Both the position numbers and the translations under genes were made by a program. Source: Membranipora membranacea (taxonomy: Eukaryota; Bryozoa; Gymnolaemata; Cheilostomatida; Membraniporidae). Taken from it: a stretch of DNA of 64,000 nucleotides. The DNA lies in assembly GCA_914767715.1 (NCBI GenBank), contig OU612066.1, positions 14,637,001 through 14,701,000 on the forward strand. Direction: 5' to 3'. The notes beneath the pieces were generated by a model. The model was not told the DNA's origin. It did not search any database and saw only the letters and a list, made by a program, of their open reading frames with translations. This document shows positions 3,001-55,200 of the stretch, piece by piece (within the stretch, counting starts at the first letter, position 1; each line of letters opens with the position of its first letter).

Positions 3001-4358
3001 TACTTACCAACTACCAAAGTTGCATGAAACATGTCTTAAATCTTATTCACAGAGCATGATATCTATGTAAACCTTAACCTGCTTTATACTGCAGGTAGAG
3101 GAAGAGACAGTGTCATAGGGGTATGAAACAGATCAGCGAATGAGACCCAGAGGATTTCAGGCCTACTTTGGAGTGTAGTTTCCTTATGTCAATATGTGAG
3201 AGTTGTCAGGTTGCTAGACTAGCCAGGACAAGTGGCTGACAACAGTAGTGTATTATTAGAATCCAATCTTGAAAGGGCTAGTGAGAGCACAAAGATGTCG
3301 TGACACGAATCAGTGTTGGAATAAAGTTAGGGGACTCCTCATAAAAAGGCACTTTGATGTTGGTAATGCCAAGTTAACAAAAGTTTTGTGAGTTATAACT
3401 TTGTATTCTCTAGCACTCACAACAACTAAAATGCTAGCATATTGCTCCTTGGACATCGTTGGGCTGATCATCAAGCAAGATGAGTACAGGGCTGGTGGTG
3501 CTTGCAAGCAGACTCCTTTGTGACCATTCCACCCTTCCAAAAACCTCCAAACACACATGTATCGATAATGGGAGAAATAAGGAGTTATCACTCATGTGAT
3601 GAAGACATTGAAAGGTGTCATATTATAGTGAATCAAGGAGGTAGCTCTGAGCAGGGAGAACTCTCCCTGCTCTGAGGCTGAATAAATGCATTGATTGTAA
3701 GTAAGTAAGCAGCATTCTTTCATGGTGTTGTTCAGTTGGTTGGTGTTTCTTTTTCTTCTCAAGTGGATGTTGGAAGGAGACCAAGTAGACATGCCTGCAA
3801 GCCATAGTGGTCCATGGCTGGCATAATCATAGCAATAAACACTCATAAGCTATACTCACACCACTTGTAGTGAAATTCCTGAGTATCCAGTTATTTTTTA
3901 ACAAGGTATTGCTTATATCTAGCTCTCCATTCAGCAAATCTCTCAGGATATCCAAGGAAAACAATATAGCTGCTCCCTTTCATATATGTTGTGATTCGAA
4001 AATAATGAGACTTGGAGTATTGATTGACAGAGCTTATAACCGATTTATTATTACAACTGAGTTTATTATTCATTTACTATAGTTATCAAATATTTTGTGA
4101 GGGTTATCTACTAGCTTTAAAGAAACACTTTTTCCTATCAGTTGCAACACTGTAATAAACAGAAATTTATCAAAGTTGTTTGCACATGTATTTCAAGAAG
4201 ACAACTCCCAATTTCTCAGCGACAAATACCTGTTATCACCAAATGATCAAATCAAATATCTTCTGAGTAAATGATCTCTTTGACCGAAGGAAGCAAAATT
4301 GAATTGAGAGAGGAATACGATCTCTGAAAGGATTATTCACGTTTATTTGACTAACATC
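1..4358. other. Intergenic, no supported gene
   Basis: Both strands were read. Open frames are short (under 100 codons), show no recognisable domain, and do not join through plausible splice sites into a longer product. The only structured element noticed is the flanked palindrome near 3.65 kb. An exon of a gene lying further left cannot be excluded. Confidence 0.5.
3645..3676. repeat. 18-bp palindrome with 7-bp flanking direct repeat
   Basis: The palindrome CAGGGAGAACTCTCCCTG (3652-3669) lies between two exact copies of CTCTGAG (3645-3651 and 3670-3676). The arrangement matches an insertion with a 7-bp target-site duplication. It belongs to the CAGGGAG/CAAGGAG palindrome family found at about eleven places in this window. 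Confidence 0.75.
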
Positions 4359-4625
4359 AGGTCAATACCTGGCTATGCCGACCCAGCCTTGTATTCGCTT
4401 TAAGGAGATCACAACTGTGAGAGGCTAGAAAAAATCCAAAGAGCTGCCCTGAAGATTTTAAAGCCTGACCTAGAATATGAGCAAAGACTGGAATGTTTAC
4501 ACATTCTGAGGCTCTGTGACTTCCTTTTTGACATGTCCTATGCTCAATCTCTTAAGATTGTTGCTAACGAGTCTCACTCTCTTCTTAGTAAGTTAATTTT
4601 ACCAAAACATCCTCTCGAGTCTTGA
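4359..4625 (+). pseudogene. Broken non-LTR retrotransposon reverse-transcriptase C-terminal fragment
   Basis: Translating from 4359 gives the pattern RSI..YADPALYSL, a stop (TAA at 4401-4403), then in the same frame CERLEKIQRAALKIL and a leucine-rich stretch ending at TGA 4623-4625. This is the typical conserved stretch after the reverse-transcriptase domain of CR1/Jockey/RTE-like LINEs (RS.LEYA.PVW....ERIQ.RAL.II). No upstream RT catalytic region or endonuclease is present, so it is a dead, 5'-truncated copy. Family assignment within LINEs is uncertain. Confidence 0.7.
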
Positions 4626-5281
4626 GCTAAATTTATTTTTAAACTCAAGCTATGTTGTAACCAAAAACGATGTAAGTACTGTTTTAACTTTTTCATGACC
4701 CACTATGACAACAGACTAATTTACAAGGAATAAATTTTTAGTTGCTTTTAAAAACTTTTTCACCACACATGCCACACCATCGCATTGCATTCAATACCAT
4801 CGTCTTTGATGATGACTAAATTAAATAAAATTATTCCAATCCAGCCAGCCGGCTATATCCCAGTTGATCTTCCAATCAGTTGTCCCTGCTACATATGAAT
4901 TGTGACATAAGTAAGTCTTTTTTTATATTAGCTAGCCTCATCAATGGGATTGGTAGCAATCACAACAGAACACACATCCTCACCCCTAAAATTATCATCA
5001 CATCACATTAACTGAGATAATAGGCCTACCTATTCCTATTGATAAGTTTGGACATCTCTACAAATATATACCACCACAAAAGTCAGTAATGGCAAAATTT
5101 CACCAATTTTTTATTATATCTGTGTGCATTGTGCAAATGCCGGTGAGATAAAACAGTGCAAATTATCTGTACTGCTCCTGAACCTTTTACAAAAATTATC
5201 TCAGCGTGAGATGTTGTAATTAGCCCCTAAATTAAAGTCAATTTAAAAAAAGATAATGAGAAAGGTCACGGGTTTGCAATA

Positions 5282-5314
5282 CATGTACCAAGGAGTAAAA
5301 CTCCTTGCATGTAC
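5282..5314. repeat. 19-bp palindrome with 7-bp flanking direct repeat
   Basis: The palindrome CAAGGAGTAAAACTCCTTG (5289-5307, 8-bp arms) is bracketed by exact CATGTAC repeats at 5282-5288 and 5308-5314. It is a member of the same family as 3645-3676, here in the CAAGGAG variant. Confidence 0.75.
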
Positions 5315-5524
5315 TAAAGTTTCTTCACTCATAGTTCGTGTTTAAATCAATGACTCAATAACTTATCTCGCTCACAGCAGGAATCAGTGTCTATATTAGC
5401 AACTCAAAATATTTAAAAACAAGATAAGCTCATTGTGGCCCATTGTAATGTTAATTTTCAAAACAAATGCCAACAAATCCTCCCTGGCAGCACACACTCT
5501 ACGCAACATCACATCACATTAGCA

Positions 5525-6052
5525 ATGGGAGACTTTCCTGCGAAAGAAGTGACTATTGGAGTGGGAGTTAGTATAGCAGGGGTAGTTATTATCACAGTTG
5601 TGGTGGTGCTCTTGTGTAAACTTTGCAGCAAAAAGACGAAGACAGGACAAAGCAGCAGAACAAGAAACTCGGAAGATAGGTAATAATTTACAATATGGAA
5701 CAATATATAACATTTTTTATACGGTTGTGATCGGTAAAATTCAATGATGAAGCACAGGAAGATGTGACTTAAATAACTTGTTGTTTGCTTGTTTCCCCCG
5801 AACATATACTACAAGATTTTCTATAAATGCTATGCACTTCAAATCTGGGTGAAGCTTAAAAATCAGAATTCTTGTTCTCTCTTTGGAAGTCCACCCAATG
5901 CAAAAAAATTAATGAGACGTGAGGTTTGAGGGTAGTTCCTTTACTTTGTTTATAGACAGCAAACTGAGGAGACGGATGTAACTGAAGACCCACCAACAGA
6001 CGCTGCGGCGTTTAAAGATGACTTCCCATTCGATCTTTATAGAGCAGCGTGA
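5525..6052 (+). CDS. Small single-pass membrane protein (83 aa), unknown function
   Basis: This is a two-exon model: 5525-5679 and 5956-6052. The donor is AG|GTAATA and the acceptor TTTATAG|A, joining an AG|A codon, and the frame stays open to TGA at 6050-6052. The predicted protein has a short acidic N-terminus, a very hydrophobic Val/Ile-rich membrane segment at about residues 10-31, then a basic CKLCSKKTK patch at 31-39. The tail is rich in Asp, Glu and Thr and ends FPFDLYRAA. The positive-inside rule puts the tail in the cytosol, and Cys31 and Cys34 could be palmitoylated. There is no cleavable signal peptide. The frame is open for 30 codons upstream of 5525 but holds no ATG, which supports this start. 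I do not recognise the family; the N-terminus resembles synaptotagmin or syndecan-like anchors only in general composition. It converges on the SLC20 gene, whose stop is 630 bp away. Expression is unproven. Confidence 0.5.
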
Positions 6053-6681
6053 AGGGATACCTTGCCATTCTACCCCAATCAGTTATGAAGATCTCTATCA
6101 TTACACCAAAATTTTTGTTTCTACTCAGGAACTGAGCAGTTTGTTTATATTTTTGTGATAGTTCGATTATTTGGATTGTCATCATTGGCAACCATTGATT
6201 CATATCAATGTTTGTAACAATTAGTACTCACATATACCTACCTTTATAATTGTGAAACAAACAGCTTTATGTAATTGACTATAGCTATTGTACAGAATAT
6301 TGTTGTGAAAAAAAATTGGACTAAAAATATGTTTAGAACTCCTTTGCTTAAATCATCATAAACAACCTTTATATGAAGGTAAAGAGCACAACTCCTAATT
6401 ATTGGAACATACAAAAGTTGATAAAATTCAAGAGGGGATGTATTGATTGCCTATTACCCCTGCACAAAGCTGCCAGGTTCATCATACCTCATAAAACTAA
6501 ATATACCTGATGCATTAAATGCATACTGTAATGTGTATCATGTTATCTGTTTGTATCGCAACAAGTATGCCCCATGTTGTGAAGTAGTAAATATCAGTGC
6601 TTCATGGCAAACGATATCAGAGCCAACACATTGGCTAGGAAAATCATTTTCAAAAAACTTTTACTAGAAGAAGGAAGCAGT

Positions 6682-9600
6682 TCAAGTCAGCATTGTTTCA
6701 TTCATTAATGTACTGTTAGCCATAGGCATATCCCATGGAGGCCCTAGTGGAGGCACCAGGTACTGCAAACCATAGAAGACTCCAGCGCTTACAGCTCCGG
6801 CAGCGGGTAATGTCACTACCCAAGCTATAATGATATTTACAAATAGTTTCCAGTCGACGTTATCTTTAGACCTCACTCTTCCTACGCATACTACAGAGCC
6901 AACTTTACAGTGTGTCGACGAGATGGGTATCCCGATATTGGAAGCTATCAGCACAGTCAGAGCTGATCCAATCTCTATACTAAATGCACTACAAAACAAT
7001 AATATACAACAACTCATCAGAATACATTTTATGAATTGCCGTGATATGTCGTTGCCAATCCAAAAAGTAAATGTTTTATGATAGATAGAATAATAATAAT
7101 TATTTTTTAGTTTGTTTTCCTCTAAATAATAACGTATGTTCCACGGCTATACCAATGAGTTTAATTTACAAGTCCATTGCCTTCACATTTGGTCATATAT
7201 ACTGATAAGTTGGCACATAGTTTTAATTGCCACTGAGGTATAGTCTTATTACATATCAGTATATTAATATATATTATATTAATTGCGAATCCTAGTTGTG
7301 TTTCATCTTTTGGTATTGAATAACATTACAAACTGATAGCAATACAAACAAAGTATTAGCTTATCACTCAATAATAATTCACATCAGTATCATATAGCAT
7401 CTGCTGTCTGCTCCTACATTTACTTACTACTAGATTTATTATGTTATTTGTAGTTGTCTAATTTTTGCATTGATAAAACCAAGGAGGAACAGAAGTTACT
7501 GTTACTCCTTGATAAAACGGATCAATAGATCACATTACTCGGAGCAAAATAATTACTCACTACGGAGAAAAATACATCCTATAGGAGCATTCTCAAAAAA
7601 TGGTCTTACTATATCAGTAATGTGTATTACAACCATACTACCATATCCCAAAGGTTATGAAAGATGAATAAGAAACACACGTTAGTTGAGAAATGAGGAG
7701 TCTTTGCTTTAGACCTGATATCGCACAAACATATTTCCAATACACTTCTTACCTGCTTGGTGTCACCCTAGTGAGATCATTGCCCATAGTTTCCATTACT
7801 CTTCTACCGAGAGCCCACAATCCGACAGTTATTCCTACTCCTCCATACAGCAAAATCCATATAGGAGTCGCTGCTTTCTGTAAAACGCTGCCTTCTATTG
7901 AGATCAACCAGACGGCCACCAGAGGGCCAATCGCGTTACTACAATAATAACAAGTTATATCTGATTAGAATTGTGAACATCAGAATGTAGATCTGTCTTA
8001 ACTACTTTGTCAGACAAATTAAGTGATTTGGGGCTGTAATCATGGTCAGCGCAGGTGCTATGGACACAGCACCTTTCAAGAACTCAAATTGGAAAAACCC
8101 TAAATAAAAATGCAGTCATTTGTTGCATGACAAAAATGTTTTCAGATATTTTTTACAATCATATCTCAACAAGTCTTTGTGAAAATTTTGTAAAAATTTA
8201 ATCGTACCAAAATTCTAAAAACCAAAAAAGGCCACCAATTTTCACCACTATTTCATCGTAATGAAGCTATGTATTATTCATCTTCAATCTTTAGTTCAAA
8301 ATTTATGAATTATTGTTCAATTATTTCTCATCCATTACTCACCTCACATCGTTACCACCATGAGCAAATGAGCCAAAGATAGCGGTGAGGATTTGAAGCT
8401 TAGAGAACAGGCTGGCCACTTCTGGAGGGTCCTCCACTCCCTCACGAGCTAACTCAATCGATGATTTCCCAGGTGACTGTGTATCGCTAGAGCTATCTTC
8501 TTTCTTAGGTTTCTTTTCCTTGTTTTTCTTTTTCTACAACAAGATTCCAAATAACAAAAGTATCAGTGACTGCCTTGTCTGTACAGCATTGGAGCTTAAA
8601 ATTAAAATTTAGTTTGATTTAGGCCTCTTGATTGTGTACAAAAATCTTGATTTCAGTCAAGCAAGTTTCAAACAGTGCATTGTAAGGAAAATGTGAAATT
8701 ACAAAGAAGTTTTTGTTAATGTAATAAATCGGTGAGTAACGACTGGGCACCTTTTTAGATGTCTTCTTAAAGGTTTCAACTGTTTCAGCTTCTTCGTTGG
8801 TCTTAGATTTGTCCTCGGCATCAAGTTTCTCTAAAGGTGCTTCTTTCAATGTCTTCAACTCCTCTAGCGAAATGTAATGGTTCACATAACAGAAAAACAA
8901 ATACACTTCTCGACTTCACAGCCTGATAGCTCTTGGACGTTAGGGTGCAAAGATGTGCAATCAAAGAGTCAATATAACTTAACAATCTCAAAAAAGACTC
9001 CTACAAAACTTTAAAAACAGTAATGACATCATCTTATCTGAAAGGGGTATACCTGATGCATCGTTAAAAAATAATAGAATCCATCATTTAAGCACGCTCA
9101 ATGAGAACAACTGTGGCTAAAACCTATCATATCTTTATTATAAGCTGATGCCAGCATGTTTTCTGAAACATAAATTTAGAGGCTCTTGTCTTTCCTCTTT
9201 TCAGGCCAGGATAATTGGGCTATAGGTTGAAAATAGCAATGCAAATGCCATTCTGAACATACCTATTATTTTCTTTCTTTGCCAGGGCACAAACACCAGT
9301 TTGACAACAATTCCAGCAATAGTTCCTGAGCCAAGAGCTATAATCATTGTCCCCCAAAGTGGTATACGGTCTAGATAGAGCTCTGAAACAATGGTTGTAC
9401 ATCCATCATTTGCTCATAATCACATACTATTGTAAGGATATCTTTCCAAGCAGCCGGCAGCCACAGTTTCATATTCTGTCATTCTGATAGTGAGAAGTAG
9501 TAGTAACCTTAAAAATGATCATGACAGCAACATGATCCTACTTGAATCATGGAGGGTGGGACATGTCCCACCCACGTGTCCAATCCTTTCTACTTGAGTA

Positions 9601-12600
9601 TGGAGTTTGATCCTCCACCGCCACATAAACTCTGCAATCTTGATTATGAGACTAAATTCTTCTAATCCGGATGTCCACACCTGCCTCAAAGTGTACAATA
9701 TGACCTATAGTGTAAAAATATTCGGCGGATTTTGAATTTGCCATTTCACTCATTTCACTCACCCATTTCAAACATACGGTAGTTATTATTTCCGCTAATC
9801 AATAGATTATGTTAAAAATAATGATTGCTTCATCAGACAAAGTAAAAAATTTGCTAATGTTTTGACTTGTGAATTCAACAATGATTGGACTGGTCCTTAA
9901 ATTTAAATCCATGAATAGTTTCATCCTGTAGAGTAGTGAAAATATACTCCCCCCCCCCAAAGAGTTCATTGTTGCCACAATCCTTTTGTAACTATAATTA
10001 TAAATCACTCACGTTCTGGACCTTTGTAGAATATTGAGAACATATTTACAACTAGCGTCAAGCCATAAAATATCGGCAGTAGCTTTAATCCACCAACCAG
10101 CTTGTCTACCTAGACAAAAAGAAGACAAAGGTGTTAGAGCAGGGAAAAAGACACAACACTACCAATTACATGTTTGTATTGTCTTAGTCTAAGTGCTATG
10201 ATGACTGCGATTGCTGTTTTTGACATTATACAAGCAAACATAAATTTGGAATGAATGATTGGCAATGCAACGCCACAAGCACGCACTTGAAGCCGTCTGA
10301 GCACTAGTTTTGCCTAGAACATAACTCTTCTTACAGTATGGCCAGGCAGTTTGCAGATTGACAGATCAATAGGGCAGGGTTTGGCTTTCCCGGTTAAGTT
10401 GGGAGGCTTTCTAGCCTCTGACCAGGTACAATATTGTGATTTAAATAAATGTTTGCAATGATATGCATCAAAAACAATAGGGGGTCATAATGGTACTATT
10501 ACAAATTACATCATAAGGAACTTTCTAATCGCATAAGGTTTAAGCTGATAAGATCCACATTTTCCTTGTAGAATTTTCAAACAGGTAAAAGTACACCACA
10601 ACGGAGAAGATGAATGTGAATAAGAAGCGGATATAGAAATGCTCAGGTAGGACATTCCAAAAGCTAATATCCGCGGACTGACCCTATCTCAAGTAGCCAT
10701 GATCCAGCAAATTAACCTAAGTCAAGGTCGAATATTTGAGTTTAGCGGAACGCTAATCTCGGTATTACAAGTGAAGTACCCGCTATTTTTCACCCAGATT
10801 TCTGTTTGCAGCAAGATAAGACAATTAGCCGCAAAAGCATTTAGCCATGTTTGAACAATGATACCACGGCCAGACACGGTATCAGGTTCATACAGGTTAG
10901 AAATCTGAATTTGTTTACTCTGTTGCATAACTTACCTTCCTTAGAACAAGAAACTTGATTACAAGGAATAACAGTATAGACACAAGTCCACTCAGTAGAG
11001 GTGAGATTACCCATGATGCACCTAAAACAAGGAGACATAATTTGTGCTTTTGAGTGCTAACGATGATATCATTATGCGTTGAAGTATCTGTGTTGCTTTA
11101 GCTTACTCTGTATTCTGAACAACTTGAGTTGCAAACCCTTCTTTGTAAGGTGGGAAGGGTAAACCCTCTAGACTCCTGAACTTTAGAATCAAGTATATAA
11201 ATCACTAATTTAGTAATGTTTATGTTTTGACCATTAAATTGTAGAATTAAGCTAGGATTTAGTGAAAGCAATTGTACCAACCTATGAGTCCAATTTGTGT
11301 CCAGTTTATCCCATCTGTGCCTTGAGCCACCAGAGCAAAGCCGAGCGTCGCACCTACAATACTGTGTGTACCTGATACAGGCAGCTTTAGAACTGTAGCT
11401 ATAAACAGCCATAGAGCAGCACCTGCAGAGTAGAAGGAGGGCCATATAAATACAGTGTGAGCTGGTTAATTCAAACTTTATAATTCTGAACTACTCTTAA
11501 TTCGGACCAGGAAAATTGGTCCCTTCAGCCAGATCTCAATGTATTCTAGTGCCACTTAATTCAGGCTCTGCTTAATTAGGGCAAATCTTTGTGGTCTCAA
11601 GAGGTTTGAACTAAGTGCACTGCACTGTAGATAAGAATAACGATAAGTTCAAAAAATAAGAGCACTTACACAGAAACGCATGTGTACTATAAAATGGGAA
11701 AACGTGAAAATGTGAGATGGGTAAGAAATGTGAGATGGGTGATAGGGCATAGTCTAAGTGCTCAGACAGCTACAAGAGCGAGTTTGTGACATGACTTTAT
11801 CAGACACATAGGACTGTTTGATAATGAAGTGACACAAACTCGCGCTTGCGGCCATCAGAGTACTAAGACTGTATATATATATAGCATGTTGTCAACAGAA
11901 TCTAGTCTTCAAACAACTGGTATCATCGGTATCTGCATCTAGCAAGTCTAAGTGCTCAGACAGCTGCAATGCAAGTTACTGGCATTAAAATATCAAACAC
12001 TCAAAATGAGTGTTTGATAACGTAATGCCACTTACTCACATTGCAGCCGTATGAGCACTTAGACGAGCATTTATCATACGGTTTGATTTTCACAAATAAG
12101 ATTATGTTTGAGTTGACAAACTATTGCTGACTTTTTACGATGAAGGGTCGATGGACAGAGCACATTACCTGTAAGTGCTGCAAGATATCCGACAAGCAGT
12201 ACCTCCAGAGAGTCACCGTAGGCATTAACATCTAATATCCCTTTCCGAATAGTGTCAGACACTCTGGCACCTTAAAACAGTGATTGTATGATAAAAAAAA
12301 TCGAAATATAATAGAACGCTTAGCCTATGTATATTATGCATTTTACTAATATGTTTATTACTGAAACTTACCTGCTTAGCAACCATTTGGCAACGAAGTA
12401 CAACCTAGGTATTGCGTTTCTTTCCAACTAATTCAATTTATTGCGCTTCCTAACAACTCATTCAATTTAGTGCGATTATGGTCCTACCAACAGAAGTGCT
12501 TAAGAATGGGTTTGGGGGATGGGAGACGTATGGTCTCAGATAAACAAGAATTGCTGTCTCAGAATGCATAGGTCCTAAATGATGAATTTACAAAACGATT

Positions 12601-15269: not shown

Positions 15270-15396
15270 TAGAACAAGTTTGTTCCCTTAGTGGTGGTGG
15301 AGGAATACAACAAAAGTGTGGTATTGAGGCTCCTCGGTATCCGACTATTGCAGTATCCCTCCGCCACCACACCACAGAGGGCACAAACTTGTTCTA
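15270..15396. mobile_element. MITE with about 41-bp terminal inverted repeats
   Basis: Left TAGAACAAGTTTGT and right ACAAACTTGTTCTA are exact complements. Complementarity continues inward through CCCT, a GTGGTGGTGG/CCACCACACCAC block and ATAC, about 41 bp per arm. The element is about 127 bp and non-coding. A clear target-site duplication is absent. Confidence 0.7.
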
Positions 15397-16571: not shown

Positions 16572-16810
16572 ACATTATCATGGCTCTTATTTCATGAGTA
16601 TACAAGCAGCAATTGTATCAGTGTCCATGTTTTACCTAGTAACATAAAAAACAGAGAAGTTCTATGTTTATGGCCCTACCATTTGTGTTGTGTGCTAGAT
16701 GTACTACACAGACAGAGTGGGTGGATTTTCTGAGAAGCAACAATTACTTCCCGCCATATAGATTTAATCATTGACATCTAATATCAATAATCAGTTGTGT
16801 GAAACACACA

Positions 16811-17285: not shown

Positions 17286-17301
17286 CAAGGAGTACTCCTT
17301 G
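17286..17301. repeat. 16-bp perfect palindrome, CAAGGAG family
   Basis: CAAGGAGTACTCCTTG has no loop. It has the same terminal bases as the flanked family members, but adjacent 7-mers do not match, so the duplication has decayed or was lost. Confidence 0.6.
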
Positions 17302-17749: not shown

Positions 17750-24459
<6,710 letters not shown>

Positions 24460-25765: not shown

Positions 25766-25782
25766 CAGGGAGAATTCTCCCT
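25766..25782. repeat. Palindrome AGGGAGAATTCTCCCT, CAGGGAG family
   Basis: A 16-bp perfect palindrome preceded by C, so the left end reads CAGGGAG as in the flanked members. The right end reads CTCCCTT. No 7-bp duplication is detectable. Confidence 0.5.
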
Positions 25783-26398
25783 TACTCCTTGCTTACATCA
25801 GGTGAGGTAATTGCTACATCAGGGTTGATGAATCTAGCAATGTGTTTCTCGTAAGTCTGTATTCGTTCCAGGACTGATCCTGACTGACTCCAAGGACTGA
25901 TCCAGTCTGAATCAGTCTAGTGAACTGAATGACTTAACTTAATCTTGATTATAAAATAAATGTTATGGTCATTATCTTACTATCTAAGTTAGGTAACAAA
26001 ACAAATTTATTAAAATATTACCATTCTGCTGATATAGTAGTACTTTTTCTCATATTCTATGTGTCAACTGCTTGAGAGATTGGCTCTCATTTTAGCCCAA
26101 GAGTAGATAATGTTTCTCTAGCAATAGATTCTATAGATAGCAGGCAGGCTCAACTTACAGCAACATTGGTTTGCCTTCACCCCTAACCACTGGTGTTGGT
26201 AGGCTAAATAAAGAGAGAGTTCATTGGTAGGCTCTTAAGCTAGGTAACATAGACGAATAGTAGAGGCGTTATGTGCATAATTAGTGTGTATTCTTAAGAG
26301 GGTGATATTCTTAGTCTGCTATTGATCTCTCCCATCACTGCTCCATGAATGGTTCTTCACTGTGACTAGATCTGTGAGGGTGGAAAACTTGGAATTTA

Positions 26399-26430
26399 AT
26401 GCTAGCAGGGAGAATGCTCCCTGATGCTAG
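26399..26430. repeat. 18-bp palindrome with 7-bp flanking direct repeat
   Basis: CAGGGAGAATGCTCCCTG (26406-26423) lies between exact ATGCTAG copies (26399-26405 and 26424-26430). Its length and arm sequence equal the 3652-3669 copy apart from the central bases. Confidence 0.8.
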
Positions 26431-28652: not shown

Positions 28653-31600
28653 ATGCCTACATTGTTGTTTCCAGCCAAGTTTCGTAGACTGAATTCCGAC
28701 ATGTCTTCAGCAGAAGTTACGTCTCGCGTCTCGTCAGCAGAGGAGAAGAGAAAACTAAGACGTCAGACTAAAGGAGAATGGGAGGTTATGCCAGGTCTGA
28801 AGGAAGGAGAGAAATATGCAGAAAAAGTTATTAAATTTGATGGATATCTGCATAAAAAGAGAAACCCACCATTGAAAGGCTGGCATAGGGTGAGTGGTAT
28901 ATGTCTTCAGTATACAGAAACCGTGTTTCATGTTGCATGAGTAGCAATCCTTTCAACAGGTCAATTATCTCAATAGGTTACTGCTAAGCTGGTCAACAAG
29001 ATCTTTGTTATTAATATCAACATCTGGTTTAACACCCTCAAGTGTAAAAGTCCTAGTGGTACCTGCACTTAGTGTAGAATTGAAATATTGAAATTGAGAT
29101 GATACTGTCATTTGACATAAACCCATATGGCATCACGGTCAGTCTCATTCTGATTTTTATGTGGATTATCATATATGTTCCTTATTCTGCAATAACAAAA
29201 GGTTTGTGGTGATCGAATATTTCTTAGTTTTAGCGAGATTTATACAGGTATGTTTAGGTATCTAATGACTGCAAGCAGGATATCATGTTATTCCATTACA
29301 GAACATTGTATGTTAATGGGATTCCACGAAATCCTGTTCCCAGCAACCCAATTGATTCTATGTGTGGTAATAATTCCTCAAAGCGGTTTGTATGTTTGTG
29401 TTGTTCTCTTCAAATGATAAATTTTGACAAATGTTTTACTTGTAGAGGTATTTTGTGATTGATGAAGGAAGTCTAATGTATTCAAAGACTCCAGCTGATG
29501 TAAGTAGCATTTACCAGAGCCAATTTATCGTTAAATTGAACTTCAAAATTGGATCAATAACGCCCATGTTGTATTTTTAACTTTCAGTGACAGTGTCGTT
29601 CTTAGTCCCCATAGTAGATAGAGCTCATGCAGTTGAAAGGGAAAAGTCCAGAATAAATTATGCTGATGGACTGTGTTTTAACTAGGGCTTTCTGGATAGG
29701 CCTATCTCTATAACATTTGATGCTGAGCATGCATAATATGATGATCGAGATTCTAGAACCACAGATATCCAACGTCAAATAGCATGCATATTCATATCCA
29801 TAATCTAGTGATATTATTTGATAACTGGTCTAATATGGATATGTTACTTGAGCACTAAAGCTCTCGAACATTGATAACTGCACGACCAATCGTAACACGC
29901 TGCAACTCAACGCCTATGTTGATTCACACTCTACATCTCACCGACTTATCTTGATCGCTCATGCTGTGGGTGGGAACGGGAAGGGCCTGGTCGCATCAGA
30001 GTTAATTCACTTAGGCAGTCAACACGATGACATAACTGGCCAATTTAGTCAAGGTGATAGACAGATAAACCAATAATTTCTCTCCCGGATGTCAGGCAGA
30101 AAGCAGTAAGTAACCATGCAGGGCCGTAGTCTAGAAAAAATGGTAGGGGAGGCGCAAAAACTTTGAGGGTATGAAGTGGACCCAGTTTGGATATTGTAAG
30201 CCCTCCTATGGATTCTGGGGTTAATCCCCAGCCTCCAAAGCATTTGAATGATATAGATAGCAAATCAAAGTCCCAAATGAGCTGTTTCTGACATGGAATA
30301 TTCAATTATGGCATACTTAGGCCACTCTATTGAGCAGTCTATAGAGCGTGCCTGCCTCCCCTAGAACTACGGGCCTTGTGTATCACTGAAACTCAAACAC
30401 CATGTCGCTAGAGATCCCATCAAACATGACATTACAAAATTACGTATATACAGTTGTTCTTGTTATTAGACGTATTATTAGATTTCAGACTTGAGCCTCA
30501 ACATAATTGAGTGTTTGATCAAGCATGGTTATATCTTGCTATGTCAACTTTTACTAATAAAAATCCAATACTTTATGTCTGACTACTCAATTCCAATATC
30601 CTCTGTAAGATAGTGTATATACATAATTCATATATATGGCGAAATTGAAAACTAAAAGCAATCTATTGGCTTGATCAATGCGACATGTGAAATGAAACCT
30701 CTTCATTTTCTCATCTTAGAATATAAAAACTCATCGAATATTATCCCATCATATTTATGTTGGACGGCGAAGACTTTCAAGGTAACATGATCCTTCCATG
30801 AAGAATGGGAGGCTGCAAAAAATCAACCCTCTGTGGCTAATAGATCCATTAACATCTGTCATACACACCACCGTGGTGAACAACCTTAGTATCTTTGCCA
30901 TGGCCATGGTCAAGTTGCTTTGTATATTCACTCAGAAGAAGGGGTTGGGTGGAGTATGGGTTATTTGTATATGCAAACTTTCCATATTCAAGCATTTTAA
31001 AAATTTTGCTGCTTAGGAAATACAGAACCAATGTGGTACATGGCTTTATACATCTTCACATCATATAACAATGCAGTAGGTCAGTACAGCAGGGAGTTTG
31101 GGACCTTCTCCCTGCACCAAACTCTGGAGTTCATTGCTCCCTTAGTGCAGTGCACCTAAAGTTCAATATCTTATTTGGTACATAAATCATGAGCAAGCAC
31201 TATATTAATCATGTATTTTAGCACGTTAAAGGAAGGCACCATGGGAAGATAGACATCGGACTGTCAGTTCTATCCTTCAACAAGCGGAAGAAGAAAATTG
31301 ATATCGATGCCGAAGATTTTGTTTGTCACATCAGGGTAAGTAAACTCAATTTGATAAATCGCATCCTTGGGGATTTCTAGTCTTTGGATCAAGTTTTCCA
31401 TTCCAAATCCCTGGCTGAGATATGAAAGTCTCATTCAGTAAATGGTTTGGGAATGACACTTAGAACAAGGAGTTGGAGTCAACTCCTTGCTTTGAAACAG
31501 GTATCTTTTGCTAAAAAAAGAACAATGAGATAATGATTTTGCAATTGCCATTTCAAAGACCTCCTACGAAACATGTACATTGTGTCATTATAATATCAAT

Positions 31601-34600: not shown

Positions 34601-37600
34601 TGGAGAATAAATGGTAGAGTGTTATCAAATGTCAAGTCAAAAGTCAAGTCAAGTCAAAAGTCAAGTTTAAAGTCTAGTCTTAAGTCCGAAACAGCTGGAA
34701 AGTATAAGTTGAAATATTACCAATACTCAGTGCTACACCATATCATGCATATAGGTAGAATCACTGTGTAGTAAACCAGGAAACAAAATGATGATTAGCT
34801 TATCAATTAACTTGACAAGCCCAACACAGCAAAATCTTTTTCGTGCTCAGTTAGGTGAGACTTCCCTATGACAATTTGGGTTATATCGGGTTGTTCACTT
34901 GAGAAACATCCATGCCATGGCCACGTCATGTCATGTCTTTTGCTGACATGGTGGAGAAGTCATGGGTTGATTCAAAATTCTATTCTTACACTATATATAT
35001 AACTTCCCCACGTCTTTCTCCCTGATTGCATGTTGATATGACTACACGTGCCGTAAGCTGCGAGTTTATGTACAATCATCTTGTGTGGGAATGTGTCATT
35101 AACCCAACCCACCTACAAGGCGTGTCATTTGAGGTGGTAAAACAAATAAAACACACCTATATGAATGCCGAGGTTATCCCAATTTTGATCTGACCACTGT
35201 CCCGAATATAGAATTTGAAAATGTTATTTATTTCTTGGAGTTGTCTTCTGATTTTCTTAATGTTTTAATTGGCAATCTTAAATATGTTGAGGAAAATGTT
35301 TTACCTTTTTTATCTTTCTGTTATTTGTTTCTAGGAGTTGTCCTCACAACTGAGTACAGAAAGTCACAAAAGAGGCTCAATTAGCAAAATACTCTCATTC
35401 AAATCTTCAACCAGGAAAGAAAGGAAACAGAATCAGGACTCTGTAAGTCATTGCTTTTCGACCTCAATATAATGTAAAGTAGAAAAGTTTAAGACTTGAT
35501 TGTTGGATACCTTTAAACCGTATTAGCGAGTTCTAGAACTCAAAGTTAAGGTATGATGTCATTGGCTTCCCAATATCTGGCTAAGACTGTCCTTGATTTC
35601 GCACCTGAGATACCAGTGACATCATACAGGGACAACTTTATCTGGTTGGAATGTTTTTATCTTATCCTTGTATTTTTATGTTTTGGCTGCTCTGCTGATT
35701 CAAAGATGACTTCACAACCAGGCAAAAATATTAATTGATCATCATGGATATGGAACATAACAAGAACCGCATCCTACAGGTTCCATCCATAAATCAAATT
35801 TTTCACCATAATTATTGTGCCAAAAGTCCTTTTGATATATCCATTCAGTTGTTTATTACATTTTTTCTTCTATCAAAATATTTTTTCACTTCTTTTTTAG
35901 GCAAGTCAGAAGACAAGCGCCTCGTCATCAAGCTCAGCTAAGTTTACTGTCGGTGGTGACTCTTCAGACTCTAATAGCTCTAGTTCAAACTTATTAAACA
36001 CATCGACCTCCTCCACTGCATCTCTTGATCTCTGTATGCAATTTATCAGTAACAGTCAGCAAGGTAAGTACTATGTACAGCTCCACACCTTCATGTTATT
36101 GTCGATTAATTTTTGTTTTGGTAAGAATTACTTACTAGCACAGGAATCCAGGATATGCATTGGACTTTAGGCTCGGTCCTAGAACATGATTTTAGGGGTG
36201 GATTTATAACTGAGGAATAGTTGAATCTCACATATTGGGGGAGGGGGTTTAGCAGCAAACGATTGTGAGAAGGAGTATGACTGAATGAACACCTGAACAG
36301 AAATTGATCATATTTCATAATCAAACACTTGTCATGTGATGTCATAACACCTGCCTTGTCATACTGACACTTTTTTGCATGACAAGGCTAATCAAACACA
36401 TATTCAGGTACAGGACTGTTTAACAATATGAAAATGTTGCTATAATATAAAATGTTGCTAATTTTATTTTGCTAATTTGTTGTTGCTAATTTTATGTTGC
36501 TAATTTTATATAATAAAATGTTGCTAATAATATAAAATGTTGCTATAGTTTCTAGCCAATGTGTTGGGTCTGATTGTCTGGTGGATGGGATCAGTTAAAA
36601 CCTAACACATTTGCTAGTTAGTGTCTGGTCTCTAGTTGAGCCATCATTGGTGCTGAAGGCCTTGACCATTGTGATAGGGTTCACTTACACATTACATCTA
36701 ATACATATGATGTGTCATTTTCCAGTGATGTCACTATTAAAGAACCTGAATCGCCGTATCAAAACAGAGCGGGACAGACTGAGACATGTAGTACAGGATA
36801 ATACCCTCATACAGACAAGTAATAGTAATCCAGCAGTGAATAACTCAGATCTTCAAGTGCAATCTCTCAAACAGGTAACTGTTAGACAAAGTTTGATGCA
36901 GTTTGCCTGCACTCAGGTTAGCGCCTGCCTGTTCACTGATAAGCCCTAGCCAAAATTTGGTGGGGGGAAGTGAGCTAGCTAAGTGCATGACATATCCTAG
37001 AGGAGTAAATGTTAGCTAGAGTTTATAGTTTGGCTTTTTTGGGGATGGCTTAATGTCAGCTAGCACTTAAATTAACTAGCCAAGTTTGCAGGTTAAATGA
37101 AGTAAAGCTGATGAAAGTTAGCTTTCAATAAATTTTACTTATTCGGGCACTTGCGAATACTTTACTCCTCCATTAAAAGTGAATAGCCACTAAGAATTTA
37201 GTTGGGTGGTTAGACCTGGGAAATAATAGGGTAATAAGAAGAAGGTTATTTTTTAGTGTTGCCATAGAGCATGGTTATCGCAAGCACTGTCAATTTCTAT
37301 CTCCTGCCTTCAAGAACTTGAAAATTACAGTCAGATAATGAACATATTATATTTATAAGAGCACACGGTTGGCATAAGGCAACTATTTTTGCCTCACATT
37401 TAAAAATCTGTTAATGTTTTTTTCAAAGTGTCTTCAAGAAGTGATGGATCAAAATGATGCATTAAAGAAAAGATTAGGTGAAAAAGAAGGCGGCGGGGAC
37501 TCACAAACAGGTGCTAGTGAAGAACTTAAAACTGCTCTATTTAAAAAAATATCCATACCTACATCTGTTACTCAAGAAAATATGGTAAGTACATAAACAT

Positions 37601-40600: not shown

Positions 40601-43600
40601 TTTTACCCCGAAGTGTCATGAATCTTTTCAGTGCACAAATATTGCAGAACTAGCTGCCTTACTATATATTGTTTCCGTCTTTCCGCAGGCTTTAACTAAC
40701 CAAATATCATAATTCACAGTTTATTTCCAATATTGAGTAGAACACAACGATTATACCAATATTGCGGAGATCACAAAGATTGTCGCGCATTAAAACAATC
40801 TTTATATAGTGTTTCCTCGATAATCTTCACAGCTGTAGATGATAGACAGAGCCAATTATTGGATGACACTGCGATGTACGATACGGGCAGGCGGTCAATC
40901 CTCCCTGCTGCTATGTCTACTGATGATGTGGGGCTCTTCTCTCTTCTCACTAAGAATATTGGCAAAGATTTGACGAGGATATCTATGCCTGTCACACTTA
41001 ATGAACCTCTCAATACGTTACAGGTATATATTTTTTGTATGAATTCCTTCATCTGCCTGTGTGGTAAATTTCCAATGAGCATATACTATGTAACCACAAG
41101 AGTTGAGTTCGGAGCTTTGATCCTGGTAGATAAATATGCCAAAAGATGGTGGTTCAGCACTCGAGAAAATGTGAGGGCAGTGCTTGGTTTGCTATTTTTA
41201 TTGATTTACAAATCGTTGATAGTTTCAATGACCTGCGTCTTTCAAATGTTTTCAAGTTTCTTGTTCATAACAATTTTATACCAAATATACTCAAGACATC
41301 ATTGTCCACTAATGAAAAATTGCCTTCTCATTACTGCCTAAATTCTGTGTGCAGACAACTTCTGTTATATTGGAGGCCAAATGTAAAGTTTGGTTCGTTT
41401 TGCCTGACAAACCTCTGTTGATATTAAACTGCCACCAGCTTAGGAACATAGGAGTTACAGCACAATTCAAATATAGCTTTCTAAGTAAGCAATAGTGGCC
41501 AAAAGTTTTTGTTTACCACTTTTAAATATTATCAACATAAGCGTTGTATATTTCGTTGTAGCTTTTATGCGAGGAGTTGGAATATAGTGAATTGTTAGAC
41601 CAGGCGTCCGAGTCGACTAATCCTTACGAACGTATGATGTATGTGGCAGCCTTCGCTGTCAGCGCTTACGCCTCAACAAACACCCGAGCTGCTACTAAAC
41701 CCTTCAACCCAATACTTGGGGAAACCTACGAGTGCATACGACTAGACAAAGGCTGGAAATTTGTAGCGGAACAGGTAAGATTAAAATAGTGGCGTACTTG
41801 TAGCCCTTGTTGGCCTTGAGGTTTTCTAAATTAAGAATTCATAGTACACTATGTGGCAGATAGCTACTTATTCTTTGATGTCAGCTAGGGTTTAACAAGT
41901 TTTACAGCGCTCTTTGAAGTGTCATTGAGTAAAACTGTGATGATGCTATAAAATTCTCCGAACACAAACATAACGTTCAGTGTACCAGCAAATTTTCAGT
42001 CTAAACAAAACTATGCCGGCATTGGTCTTGACATTAGTTTACCTTGCCAAGTTTGCCTTTAGTTGCTTTCAAAGGCTGGTTTACAGGGTAGATGATGGTC
42101 ATCTTTGATCTGATTTGCTTGCATTTGGTGTTGCTCCCAATCCCATCGAAATGGAGCAACACGAATTGCAGTCAAATGGATTAAATTTGATCTAGGGTAG
42201 ATGCCAGTCAGATTTTTTAGATAATAAAAACAAATTTCTCTTGATTCAGTTTCTCTGCACGATGTTAGACTAGACATGGTTTCTTTTTTGGTAAGGAGCA
42301 CACATAACAGACCTCTCATTTTGGTAGACCGCCTCGCTGTCTTTGTCTCGTACTTTACTGTCCAAGAAAGCCACTCCACAACGACCCCTACTCCACTTAG
42401 GAATGTCCCTCGGATAAACATCCCACTCAAACCTGTGAACTATTCATTATTAATTCAATGTCAATTTTATCATTTTATCTTTCGCAAACATCGCAATAAG
42501 TCTGCCTTTTTATCAGTTTATTATTTGCACCCAAGTGTTCTTAAATCAGGAAGTTTTCCTTATCCCTCGGAGATTTCAAAGGGGACTTTTTCTAAGAAAT
42601 GTGGGCAATCTGCGTTTGAGTTAATCAATCCATTCACCTTTTCATTATCCCATGATGTAAAATTTAAAATAATATTAGCGTGATCTTTGTTTCCTTTCAG
42701 GTCAGTCATCACCCACCTATATCTGTCTGCCACGCAGATTCTGAGAATTTTGTCTTCAAACAGGACTGCCGCGTGAAAACTAAATTCTGGGGAAAATCAA
42801 TGGAGTTTCATCCCAGCGGCACAGTGTCTGTGGAAATCCCCAGGTAATCATCACATAATTAATTTTGTTTATATTGGGTGAGTTTGTTCAGAACCCAATG
42901 ATATGCTGAATGATCCCCTAAATTTTAAAGATTCAAACTAAAAATTTCTAAGTATGCAGCTTTAGCCCTGTTTACACGGCCACGGGTTTTGGTTTTTTTG
43001 GTTTTGAAAAAACCAAAACCCGTGGCCATGTGAACAGGGCTAATGCAGCTTACCTTGAAGTACGTCAACTTATAAACGTAAATTTAATTTTAGTGACTCA
43101 TTTTAAACAGTCTGAACTGTCACATCATGCATTTGTCATCAGTGTGAAGCCTTACAAAGCAGTCTGATTAATCTAAGTATAGGTACAAAACTAGATTTGA
43201 CAGTAATATTCAAAGTGTTAAAATTCTTGGCCCGTTTCTCTGCTGTAATACAGTTGTGCATTTCACAAGGTCTATTAAGGTCCTTTGCAATTATGCAATC
43301 GTCAAGATTTTGGTGTTGGACAGGGCATCGACATGTGAACAGTTCATGTCACATCTACACACGTGGCTATGGCACTTCTTCTCAGCGATGTTACATATGT
43401 GTGTGTTTGACCCTGGGAGTATTTAATTATGTTGGTTTAGAATCCGGTTTGTCTTGTGATATTCTGCTAAACCTCCACTTCTCCACAACACCATCCCTCC
43501 TTCCATTCACCAATTTAAATTTTCCATTCATTCGCTAGTCTGTGGTTGATATATCTCCAGTATTTCTGCTCAACGTATAACACCATAACATAAAACATTA

Positions 43601-49525: not shown

Positions 49526-49531
49526 AATAAA
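49526..49531 (+). other. Candidate ORP poly(A) signal
   Basis: AATAAA 374 nt after the ORP stop codon at 49150-49152, the first canonical hexamer downstream. Confidence 0.35.
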
Positions 49532-50290
49532 CTGAAATTTGCTGTTAGACCCATTTGAATTTAATTTGAGTAGCTGTGATGCTAGATGATATCCACACAT
49601 TCCAATCCTCGTTGCTTTAAGATTTAGGCCTGTTACAGCTTTTCTCAAAAGAGACTCTGGTTATCTCAAGTTGGAGATCTGCCTCGATCTATTATTTGCT
49701 ATTGTTAATTTTTTTGGTTAGCTTTTCGACTTTCACTGTTTTTGTTTTTCAAAATCTTGTTATTCTTGAAATGTGATATATTTTTGGAGTATGCAAAAGG
49801 TTTTTCACTCTTTTTTTCATGACGGCATGCAAACACTGATTTATAGCAGTCATTCATGCGACAAAGTTTAGATAAACTGCCATTCAATCCTGCAATTCAA
49901 CATTAAAGAATTAGATTTTATTAGCGCATTGCTAATTGTTTTAATTATTTTTCTTTTTTTAAAGTAGGATGACCATCACAGATGTCACTGTTACTTTAAT
50001 TCCACAAACGTTAATTGCCCTGTTTCATTGTGATGCAAAACCCAAGGTCTTACTAAGAACGATTCATTTCTTTGCGATGAATAGCACTCCCTAGCACCAC
50101 ATTACACCCAAATTCATTTTTGTGTAAAGAGGAGTAGTGTAGAGTGCTACAGTGTTTTTGAATATCTTTTTTGGTTTATTTTATTACATAACGTTAGAGA
50201 ATTTATATAGCTGAGATTTGTTTGTGTCTTGATTGAATACACGAATGATTGAAAATCTGAATATAAAACCTGTTGTCGTTTTACTATAGT

Positions 50291-50434
50291 TGTAGTGCCT
50301 CCCCTCATTTGGTATCACCTTGAAGGTCTCAGTCTAATTGAGTGCACTATGGTGACCTTTTAAATGACCTCTGAAGACAGTTGAAACTATTAGCGTTTAC
50401 TAGAGAGAAAATTATGCTCAACCACTAAAGTTGT
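50291..50434. repeat. Dispersed repeat copy 2 (intergenic)
   Basis: The longer version of the repeat at 48278-48380, about 2 kb away in direct orientation. The shared left 60 bp is about 80 percent identical by eye. No terminal inverted repeats or coding capacity were seen. Confidence 0.7.
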
Positions 50435-51066
50435 AGGTTAAAGCTCTAAGAGATATAAATATGCATAAAATGTTCCAATTTTAGATTGTTGTACTTTGAA
50501 CATGGAGAAAATCTTTGAAAAATAGGATTATAAGCACTTTATTCGCCATAATATTTTACCTAAGCGGATATCACAGACCCACAAGCAGTACTATGGCTAA
50601 CGGAGTTATCCTGTCATTAGATACAGTGTAAACACCAGGCCCTTATTGGTTAAAACTTACTATGCTAACTAACTAGTTTACCTTTGAGTAACGTACACTG
50701 AAATCGACCTTAGACCTTTGGCGTCACCCCGCCCCGAACCATGGAGGCTATATGAAATGGGATATGAACGATTAAAACGGTAATTAACTGAAAAGGTCTG
50801 CATCTTAATCTTGTTATCACTAAATGCAGATTCTCCAAAGTAGGACCCAAACCAAAACTTTAATATACTCGAACGAGATTTTACCTTAAATTCTGGCTTC
50901 CATGCATGAAAAGATTTTACTTGAGTGTTAGGAAAGAGAATATCATGTGCCTTGTTACGTAAAGTGTTTTCATTCTATCATTATTTCATCATAACACCGA
51001 TCCTTACACCACATATGTGATTAACCCTTAGTGTTATGACAGAGTAACATAAATCCTTACCATGTG

Positions 51067-51111
51067 GTGTTATCAGGGAGTTTGGAACATGTCCCAAACT
51101 CCCTGTGATAT
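51067..51111. repeat. 31-bp palindrome with imperfect 7-bp duplication
   Basis: Arms CAGGGAGTTTGG and CCAAACTCCCT enclose a short centre that reads ACATGTC. Flanks GTGTTAT (51067-51073) and GTGATAT (51105-51111) differ at one base, if the element's last G has been lost. Confidence 0.65.
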
Positions 51112-52208
51112 CCTGAGGATTTGCTGTAAATGTGAGGCATTAACGGAAAACCGTGCAATTAACTGAGATGCCAGGAATCTAATTTTGGTAATTCAGCGTT
51201 AAAATTGATGCTACTCAAAGCATAAATAATTTAAATGTCGATTAGCCTTTGGTTACAGTTAACAGTACATACGTTATATTAATCAGACATCTGATCATGC
51301 AGTACTATTTAAGTTTCCTTTCAGTGTTTGGGTTTTACTGCAAGTGTTTGCATTATATAGTATATACAGTTACAAGTGAAACCCTAATATCAGAGTGTGT
51401 TATACAAATGGAGGCAATTAACTAACTGGCCCAATTTATATCAGAAATAGGCTGTTTATCTCAACTGCGTAACTTTCAGAATTACTGATTGTATTACGGA
51501 AATTGTTGCATACAACGGTGAAAGGGTTGCCAAATTACTGACATAATATTGGCTTTGGTTTGGTACTTGTATCATCAGCATCTAACGTCCACATACATTC
51601 TGATAAGGGAACAGCTATGGTCATATCGCCAGCATAGATATGTCGTTTTACCCATAACTCCAACGTTACGATCTGTTATGCTACCAGGCTTATCAAACGA
51701 CATTAACACCCCCTCAGTTCAGATTTATGGTTAATTTTAGATCATACTACTGGTATAATAAAGTTGTGTGACAATTTGTGTATTTGGCATTTTTAATTGA
51801 GTTAACAAGGAAAATTTATGCAGGTGTCCCTAAACCATAAAGATATATTTTTATTGCATCAACAGATATGTGTAAGAAGTCAAAGACACCCAAAATGATT
51901 TACTGAATGGTGTATTTGTATTACTGTCAAACTGCCGAGTATGTCAAAATTCAAATTGAATCTATTACAGTGACAATCTTCGTTTCGACATTGGTTGTGG
52001 AAGCAACATTGCAATGTTTGCAACAAATTAAAAATTAATATTCTTCAATCCCACAATGCAATAGAAGCATCTACTGAAAACTCCAGTAAAAGATCATCAA
52101 GGGCTAATACTATCAACAAGCAAATTGATAAATACCATAAACATATAGATACTTTATTCATGATGAAAATGATATAGATGCCAATAAAGTCATAAAAAAA
52201 TTAATTTC

Positions 52209-52214
52209 TTTATT
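52209..52214 (-). other. Candidate GPCR poly(A) signal
   Basis: AATAAA on the minus strand, 17 nt beyond the GPCR stop codon; a second lies at 52153-52158. The distal one leaves a more usual 3' untranslated length. Confidence 0.35.
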
Positions 52215-52230
52215 TATATGTTTATGATAG

Positions 52231-55200
52231 TTACAAACCTGAAACGTTATGAGTAATAGATGTGTCTGGTCCAGTATCATATGTGCTGATGAGAAGATGA
52301 CTTTTTCTAGGAGGCATCGGACTCACAGAGTCAGCAGTTACTACCTGATTGTATGCAATAACACCTTCACGGTTTAATTCTCTGTGGGAAGGAGAGGAAT
52401 GTTTGGACGATTGTTTGCAAGACCTCTTCTTTACGCTGGCCGATAACTTTTTGTTAAAAGTTTTCATGCAGCCACACATGGCTTGCAGTTCTCGTCGGAA
52501 CCGCCTACCAGTTAAACAGTAGAGGAAAAAGTTTATGGAATGATTTACATAAACTATTGCAGTCATTATGGCATCTGCCAGTTCGAGCTTTGCCAGTCTT
52601 TCTGGTGTTGGCCTATGTTGATAAAGAATAACTGATTGAAACATAGTAAATATCAATATCGGTACGGTGACAAATAGAAAATAAAATGTCACGCTGACGA
52701 GCATTCTAGTCATGGAGTTTGTCTGCTGTGTTATCCCCGTCTTAGAAAGTTCACTGCCACCACGAGACAGGGCACTGTCGTTCCGTAGAGATCGTAGTTT
52801 ACGAATGATTAATATGTTGAAAATCAGCATCGTGGTGAAAGGAATGGCGCAGTACCAAGCCATTGACAGCCATCCCTGGTGATGCGCCCAGAAAAAATGA
52901 GCCTTTTTTGAAGTATACCCACAATGCAACGGCAGTTCCTCATTTGTATCAGCATCAATTATCTTTTGGAAGTGGTCCCCTCTTGTCCAGAATACTTGGA
53001 TATTAAATATAGTCTGCACCAAGACAAGAGCCGCTAGAATCTTCAAGGCTGCCCCCCTTGTTTTTATTTTTCGGTGCTTGGTAGGTAAGCAGACCGCGAC
53101 GAATCTCTCGATTGTCACAATGCCAAGAATCCAAGCTGACATGTCCATGCTGAAATACAAGATGAAGCGATGCAGTTTACATGATGCTCCAGAAAGCTGT
53201 CTGACATCGATCTGAAATAGAAATATTTTATTTATAGTCATGGATACTTTTCTAAAGCACCAACAAGGAGCTGGATAATCTCTTCTGTCATTCAATGAGC
53301 TAATCTAATAATTACGTGTAATCAACCCTGTGAACATGGTATTATCACTTTGAAACAATGTAACTCAGTTAAGTTATAGATATATTTGATAAGAGATGTA
53401 TTATGTCCGAGCGAGCATGTGGACTAGGGATAGGTTGAACAGTTATGGTTTGCTATTTATTCCCCTATATTACACTGTCCAAGTTGAGAAACCATTACAT
53501 AACTTCGGAAACCCCCTTTACATGTGATCCAGGCCATAGCTGTAAACCAAGAGGAATCAGGGTCCGTATTGTCGGTACTGCGATTAACACCCACTTCAGA
53601 AATTAGCTTGTATGTAAATCAGAGTTTATATTATTCTCTATTTTTTACATTGTTCAGTTAGGGGAAATAATAATTTTTATGTCTGAGTCTCGTTTAACCT
53701 CAGCAGTCGGGTAAAGGTCGATAGCAATCTAAACTATTCACAAAAACTCTATACAAAAAGTTGATGGCTTTGCTGAGAGTGAAAATTTTTGTTTCAGGGT
53801 TCATTGCGTCTTTTTTCTTCATATAAGAACAAAACTATTTTGGCCTTGACACTAAAATGAGAAATTAGAGTTGGACATTTTAGGAATGATTACAGCTGAT
53901 CGATGGAAGATGTAATTAGCCAATAAATGACATACACCGTACAGCGTATCATATGTAGTCTGAATACTGTTCAAGACGACTAGATACGATAAGCTTGACA
54001 TGACGGTAGCGCAGATTTTTAATGTAATTTAATAGATAATACAATATATATTATATAGTATAAGATGCGTCCTAAGCGCTTCCAGCAAATACAGAAAACA
54101 AATATGTCAGTATGTGAACTGGTGTCACTTCTATTATATTAACGTAAAATGCCGTGACATTTTGTTTATCCTGGTAGTATATTAGGCTATATGAGCATCT
54201 CAATTAGCACTGGTCAGATCTGTCAATGAAGGGAGTTCATTAGTTCTATGCATCATAATTTACTAACAAAATTGTAAAAGAATGTGCATTTGTAGATTTT
54301 GTAGAGCAAACTAGATTTCCTGATTTCCTGCTTGAATGATAATCTTTGTCATTCGGTGTTGAGTTATTTGAGTGGGTTTATGCAAGAAAGAACAAATACT
54401 ATTGATCATTCATTGTGAGCAGTCTACCTACGCTACTAAGGTTCATCATGAAACTTTACATCTTCTCAGACTTTTCATTTTACAGCCCATAGTCAGTACT
54501 GATGAAATCAGGGTGGGTGGGATATACCCTCCCTCTCTCCCTGATAAAATAGTGTGACTGAGTGACAGAGAAAGTTTTCCAGGTTGCCTCCCCATGGACT
54601 TTGAAACTAACAACAAATGTGATTACTTTACAAGTTCAGACTACAATTTTGAATAGCAGCCAGCACATTAAAGTGGTGCTGCTGAATAATTAATTATATG
54701 AGTTGATATCTGATCAAGGTTTTAATACCCCTCAGAGACCAAGAATCAATGACTTATGTTTCCAGATGTCAACAAGGTTGATCCTAGCTCAGGCCAGTTG
54801 TGTACTCAACAGAGAAAGTTATCATGCTAAGAACAACATCGAGTAAGCTCGAAAGTGGTTAGCTGTTAGGTAAATACAAGAGAGATCTTGACCTTGAAAT
54901 GACCACTTGGCTTGCATCCCACACAAAGATTCAATTAACACTCAGATCACTTAAAATAGTCAAATCTAATCACAATCAAATTATATCACTGCCTAGAGAG
55001 GCTTAGAAAAAACACACATGACCCTCTCGTTACAACAGGGTTAATCAGATATCTTAATCATCTGGTACATGTTTACAACCCAACTCAAATTAATACAACG
55101 GCAAATATCATGTTTTATATGATGGTAGCTTATCTGTATAACAACACTGACCAACTTTTACCTGAGATACCATGATAAGCCATGTATCATAATGAGGCAA

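Follow-up and report, generated by a model that had tools for sequence, protein, structure and literature searches.

Short palindromes flanked by 7-bp repeats in a Membranipora membranacea genomic window: probable excision footprints of P-like transposons

A 64-kb stretch of the Membranipora membranacea genome (contig OU612066.1, positions 14,637,001 to 14,701,000; hereafter the window) contains a family of very short palindromes that begin with CARGGAG and end with CTCCYTG, several of which lie between direct repeats of exactly 7 bp. These palindromes are best read as footprints left by the excision of cut-and-paste transposons whose tips carried CARGGAG and which most likely belonged to the P superfamily, and we place the probability of this reading at roughly two in three (0.66). 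The density of the palindromes, 11 in 64 kb or about one per 6 kb, rests on this one window.

All 11 palindromes listed by a sequence-only reading of the window are present at their coordinates. Exact CARGGAG...CTCCYTG ends are found in ten of them across the whole window, with lengths of 15–32 bp, and the eleventh, at 54509, has its left end altered to CAGGGTG. Exact-tip pairs spanning 14–40 bp number 11, comprising the ten distinct palindromes and one cross-pair (3634 with 3669), and 300 dinucleotide shuffles yielded five such pairs altogether (mean 0.017), none of them with a flanking repeat of 5–10 bp. The proposal that palindromes with CAGGGAG or CAAGGAG tips exist above shuffled controls is upheld by this comparison (10 in the window versus 0.017 pairs per shuffle). 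An origin as chance palindromes or as a local motif has nothing in its favour except the small sample, and is opposed both by these counts and by the matching 7-mers at five of the ten exact palindromes; chance is already refuted at the level of the window, and the probability left to this explanation is negligible.

Exact in-register repeats of 7 bp flank five of the ten exact palindromes. CTCTGAG stands on both sides of an 18-bp palindrome (3652–3669) in the footprint at 3645..3676, CATGTAC on both sides of a 19-bp palindrome (5289–5307) at 5282..5314, and ATAAAAC on both sides of an imperfect 32-bp palindrome (7480–7511) at 7473..7518, the arms of which, CAAGGAGGAACAG and CAAGGAGTAACAG, differ inside. 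GTCATAT encloses a 15-bp palindrome (22212–22226) at 22205..22233, and ATGCTAG an 18-bp palindrome (26406–26423) at 26399..26430. In two further footprints the in-register repeat has one mismatch: CTTAGAA and CTTTGAA flank a 24-bp palindrome (31466–31489) at 31459..31496, and ATGAAAT and ATAAAAT flank a 35-bp palindrome (54509–54543; right tip CAGGGAG) at 54502..54550. In-register repeats with at most one mismatch are thus found at 7 of the 11 listed sites. Random sites show an exact 7-mer at a rate of 0.00023 and one with a single mismatch at a rate of 0.0025; set against the former rate, the exact flanks at five of ten palindromes support the excision reading.

The other four listed palindromes are less well flanked. 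A probable footprint at 51067..51112 consists of a 32-bp palindrome (51074–51105) with CAGGGAGTTTGGRACATG in both arms, and its repeat (TGTTATC/TGATATC), which shares one base with the tip, comes down to one mismatch only after a 1-bp shift of the boundary; with the boundary free to move by as much as 4 bp, about 10% of random sites match at least this well. The palindrome CAGGGAGTTTGGGAC...CTCCCTG at 31090..31114 has no near-identical 7-mer beside it: in register, six of the seven positions are mismatched, and the most favourable shift still leaves two mismatches, a level found at half of random sites. No flanking repeat above chance was found at the palindrome CAAGGAGTACTCCTTG (17286..17301), possibly a footprint with altered flanks, or at the palindrome with the tips CAGGGAG and CAAGGAG at 25766..25791. 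The five exact flanks claimed in the sequence-only reading are all confirmed, as is the absence of a repeat at 17286 and 25766; of the four sites at which it had placed 7-mers differing at one base, 31466 and 54509 hold in register, 51074 holds only with the shift, and 31090 does not.

The flank length was assessed by a scan for inverted repeats of any sequence with perfect 7-base arms, at least two G/C per arm, and flanks with at most one mismatch. Six cases with 7-bp flanks were found, against 0.23 per shuffle (30 shuffles), and all six carry CARGGAG-family tips, which the scan did not require. Flanks of 5, 6, 8, 9, and 10 bp gave 1, 0, 1, 2, and 0 cases, respectively, against 0.00–0.07 per shuffle; two of the three cases at 8–9 bp are listed sites read out of register, and 7 bp is the sole flank length with more than two cases. 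Inverted repeats with one or two arm mismatches contribute mostly chance matches, with 18 cases versus 6.7 per shuffle and 79 versus 51, respectively, at 7-bp flanks, known sites included. A looser-tip scan (combined tip match of at least 6, exact flanking repeats, eight shuffles as control) gave 27, 12, 9, 5, and 1 cases at 5, 6, 7, 8, and 9 bp, with shuffle means of 11.25, 3.0, 0.6, 0.0, and 0.1. Known sites in a shifted register account for 10, 10, and 3 of the cases at 5, 6, and 8 bp, and after removal of the known sites in any register, 17, 2, 4, 2, and 0 cases are left at 5–9 bp; beyond the known sites, 7 bp stands out weakly. The nine looser-tip matches at 7 bp are the five known sites and weak ones at 2752, 11562, 31924, and 55368. 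The claim that 7-bp flanks are commoner than other lengths is accordingly borne out by the perfect-arm scan (6 versus at most 2), and only weakly so for looser tips outside the known sites. A staggered cut by a transposase is supported as the source of the 7-bp duplications.

The duplications, the conserved tips, and the variable joins between the tips are directly visible in the sequence. In an extended set of 12 inserts (the 11 listed palindromes and a weak one at 9548), the lengths are 15, 16, 18, 18, 19, 24, 25, 26, 31, 32, 32, and 35 bp; all are at most 35 bp, with a division between left and right tips that depends on the source element. All 12 inserts keep both tips in inverted orientation, with variable joins, although the search pattern demands both tips and so selects for this in part; the CA...TG ends at all 12 sites are likewise imposed by the search pattern. 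Not one of the 66 pairs is identical, and most inserts have in common only their outer bases. Several tips recur: CAGGGAGTTTGGGAC in the left arm of 31090 and in both arms of 51074 (on the left with one difference), CAAGGAGTA(A) on the left of 5289, on the right of 7480 and 25766, and on both sides of 17286, and CAGGGAGAA on the left of 3652, 25766, and 26406 and on the right of 31090. The interiors of the longer inserts 7480 and 51074 are inverted yet imperfect, in the manner of the terminal repeats of a real transposon, and the recurring tips and imperfect arms would suit independent repair joins of related ends. Some centres of the joints (TA, AATT, CATG, and ATAT) are compatible with palindromic microhomology, as judged by eye from too few sites.

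Three inserts are close to one another. Between the inserts at 3652 and 26406, 2 of 18 bases are changed, and over its first 17 bases 25766 departs from either of them at a single position; the edit distance over whole inserts is at least 3 for every pair except 3652/26406 (2 edits), the ends being common by selection. This trio resembles copies of one small palindrome or element, which lowers the weight of the excision reading and raises that of true nano-elements of 15–35 bp, mobilised in trans by a transposase able to recognise CARGGAG tips. The latter explanation also agrees with a duplication that is constant at 7 bp while its sequence varies, and with the centres of the trio (AACT, AATG, and AATT), which share two bases, a coincidence noticed post hoc with a chance of 0.006 for three random centres. 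The trio also fits a tip CAGGGAGAATT that was rejoined repeatedly at the self-complementary AATT, and a single join makes up 14 of the 66 tabulated Drosophila isolates discussed below; copying and a repeated identical join are inseparable from three sites. The remaining inserts vary in length and centre, none of the 66 pairs is identical, and characterised transposases, to our knowledge, require longer ends. Mobile nano-elements, one of the two options put forward in the sequence-only reading, are therefore disfavoured on the set as a whole, with the trio in their favour, and we consider them quite improbable.

In the excision reading, a transposon would insert through a 7-base staggered cut, so that 7 bp of target are duplicated. 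The transposase would later excise the element by cutting one strand flush with the duplication and the other well inside the tip, which would leave single-stranded 3' tails of both terminal repeats on the chromosome. End joining, probably of the Pol theta or ligase 4 kind, would then pair and fill these tails, and the product would be a duplication, a partial tip, a reversed partial tip, and a second duplication. The first ~17 nt of the source element would be expected to match CAGGGAGTTTGGGACAT, CAAGGAGTAACAG, or CAGGGAGAA, and inserts of 15–19 bp could mean that some source elements left shorter tails or that the tails were trimmed further. Excision and the repair route, like the P superfamily, are inferred; assignment to that superfamily is suggested by the anatomy of the sites and is unproven.

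Several observations in addition to the close trio weigh against this reading. In-register repeats are missing at 4 of the 11 listed palindromes, and 5 of the 12 inserts are 15–19 bp long, below the commonest Drosophila length of 30 bp (among 44 isolates). No full-length CARGGAG element was found in the window, and Pfam detected no transposase domain in the 20 of 41 window open reading frames (ORFs) of at least 90 aa that were scanned. In Drosophila, P excision is at first repaired mainly by homologous synthesis (PMC2895639), so that many scars with no element nearby would be unusual.

The search for a source element, which would miss elements with a single tip or lacking a duplication, covered exact-tip pairs 36–8000 bp apart, of which 1 of 42 had 7-mers with at most one mismatch, a cross-pair of two listed palindromes. 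With one tip mismatch allowed and pairs up to 12 kb apart, 3 of 1900 had matching 7-mers where 5.1 were expected. One-sided footprints were sought at 16 unpaired tips, with nothing beyond chance: two tips had a 7-mer match within 45 bp (one of them 54509), against a random rate of 9.6% per tip. The full-length transposon with CARGGAG termini and 7-bp duplications envisaged earlier was thus not found within the window. The tip-pair searches bear on internal deletion of resident transposons or miniature inverted-repeat transposable elements (MITEs) between their terminal repeats, through slipped replication or abortive gap repair, which would likewise leave both duplications and both tips. Lengths should then spread above 35 bp, where the 36–8000 bp range gave only the cross-pair and the more permissive search gave fewer matches than expected, and this route appears very doubtful. 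The second option of the sequence-only reading, two termini of a larger transposon, survives in part: leftover termini are favoured, by way of excision and end joining and not of internal deletion of a resident copy.

The footprints may instead have been left by a non-P cut-and-paste transposon that cuts its target with a 7-bp stagger and its donor site 7–17 nt inside the tip. A long inside cut is all that the anatomy requires, a shorter overhang of about 7–9 nt would suit the five inserts of 15–19 bp, and Pfam showed no P transposase among the 20 of 41 ORFs that were scanned. However, CA tips and 7-bp duplications already match relatives of P, and a donor stagger of this length is not known to us from any other superfamily; we regard a non-P source as unlikely. 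If excision is accepted, the genome may hold thousands of scars (about one per 6 kb if the window is typical) of a transposon lineage that is nearly or wholly gone and known only from such traces, with a transposase whose donor stagger may differ from the 17 nt of P and yield the 15–19 bp class, an extension that we offer only tentatively.

As excision scars, the palindromes would record former transposon locations and the way in which the germline mended breaks that had long 3' tails. A natural population of these scars would reveal, without experiment, the end-joining choice between microhomology and filler in a non-model animal. The scars would also caution against taking every very short "insertion" with a target duplication for a mobile element. 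One footprint lies close to a gene: the right 7-mer of 22205–22233 ends 25 bp upstream of a likely splice acceptor (AG ending at 22258, judged by sequence) of a ribophorin-II-like gene, for which the Pfam match to Ribophorin_II_3rd runs from residue 57 of the ORF 22091–22459 (base 22259). A full transposon at this site might have disturbed splicing of the gene. The window, with a GC content of 37%, also encodes a forkhead protein, a rhodopsin-type G-protein-coupled receptor, and exons of a PHO4 phosphate transporter, ribophorin II, and an oxysterol-binding protein, and from these genes it looks like animal DNA.

Two weaker sites are new here. A candidate degraded copy at 9548..9578 has the arms CATGGAGGGTGGGACATG and CACGTGGGTGGGACATG and an unconvincing repeat (two mismatches with a shift), and a possible shortened footprint at 11555..11577 (CTTAATT, CAGGCTCTG, CTTAATT), weak despite its exact 7-bp repeat, is one of the four looser-tip 7-bp matches outside the known sites, where about 0.6 is expected per shuffle. 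A lone CAAGGAG tip at 3634–3640, 11 bp ahead of the 7-mer of the 3652 footprint, is possibly an older footprint struck by a second insertion. Other repeats occur in the window. A 106-bp element at 55449–55554 is a MITE-like insertion: its inverted ends (TAGAWCA...) are 30 nt long and 80% complementary, and its target duplication AGCGGTACC is an exact 9-bp repeat, a length by which the element is possibly Mutator-like. Similar ends (TAGAACAAGTTTG) are present at 15270–15396 with no clear duplication. Two fold-back copies starting (A)GTCTAAGTGCTCAGACAGCT (11751–11870 and 11946–12064, 75 bp between them) and a 114-bp fold-back palindrome at 42946–43059 (53-nt arms, 87% complementary) show no clear target duplication, and a short AT-rich tandem array with the unit ATGTTGCTAATTTT occupies 36425–36552.

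Among known systems, MITEs share inverted termini and target duplications with the window sites, but they contain internal sequence and belong to families whose copies resemble one another, whereas the window inserts run essentially from tip to tip, none are identical, and three are close. The sites do not match a MITE family on this basis (0 of 66 identical pairs; only three of 12 inserts close, with 1–2 differences over 17–18 bases). The hAT superfamily, suggested earlier from the CAGGG termini, is not supported: hAT target duplications are 8 bp, the repeats here are 7 bp, the sole perfect-arm case at 8 bp is 51074 in a shifted register, and three of the five exact 8-bp looser-tip cases are shifted known sites. 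Nor is hAT excision known to us to leave behind long stretches of the two tips, a feature for which P-type excision would account, as it would for the duplication length.

Searches on footprints of P elements, on relatives of P, and on surveys of footprints across genomes showed, in titles and abstract openings, no report of a natural population of P-type footprints, an absence confined to those searches, and among the matches listed for the tip letters, the titles and abstract openings are unrelated to transposons. Galileo, a member of the P superfamily in Drosophila, makes 7-bp target duplications, according to PMC2775673 and PMC4168063, and shares this length with the window sites; it differs in its very long terminal repeats and its preference for GTANTAC targets, the five exact 7-mers of the window having no common motif by eye. 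The zebrafish element Pdre2 has a tip that begins with CA (CATACCTGTCAAC; PMC10983969), and Pdre2/THAP9 is thus an animal P-like element with short terminal repeats starting CA, as in the window, although its duplications are 8 bp and its tip is CATACCTG rather than CARGGAG.

The closest likeness is to Drosophila P. After its excision, the donor ends carry 3' tails of 17 nt that do not complement each other, bordered by the target duplication (PMC2895639 and PMC5466332). P tips (CATGATGAAAT) start with CA like those of the window yet differ in sequence, and the P duplication is 8 bp rather than 7 bp. Of the 66 P{wa} isolates tabulated in PMC2895639, 44 were used here; the others are 20 in which long microhomology took away most of the tips, one whose join ended in the duplication, and one deleted beyond the duplication. 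The inserts among those 44 are 7–44 bp long, and 39 retain at least 7 nt of each tip; the window inserts (15–35 bp) lie inside this range and are on average shorter, the commonest P{wa} length being 30 bp where 5 of 12 window inserts are 15–19 bp. The P{wa} data come from an experiment at one site in recombination-deficient flies. Table 1 of the same source includes the join duplication-CATGATGAAATAAC(AT)GTTATTTCATCATG-duplication, and the window sites resemble such joins in their whole order: a duplication, a partial 5' tip, microhomology or filler, a reversed partial tip, and the duplication again.

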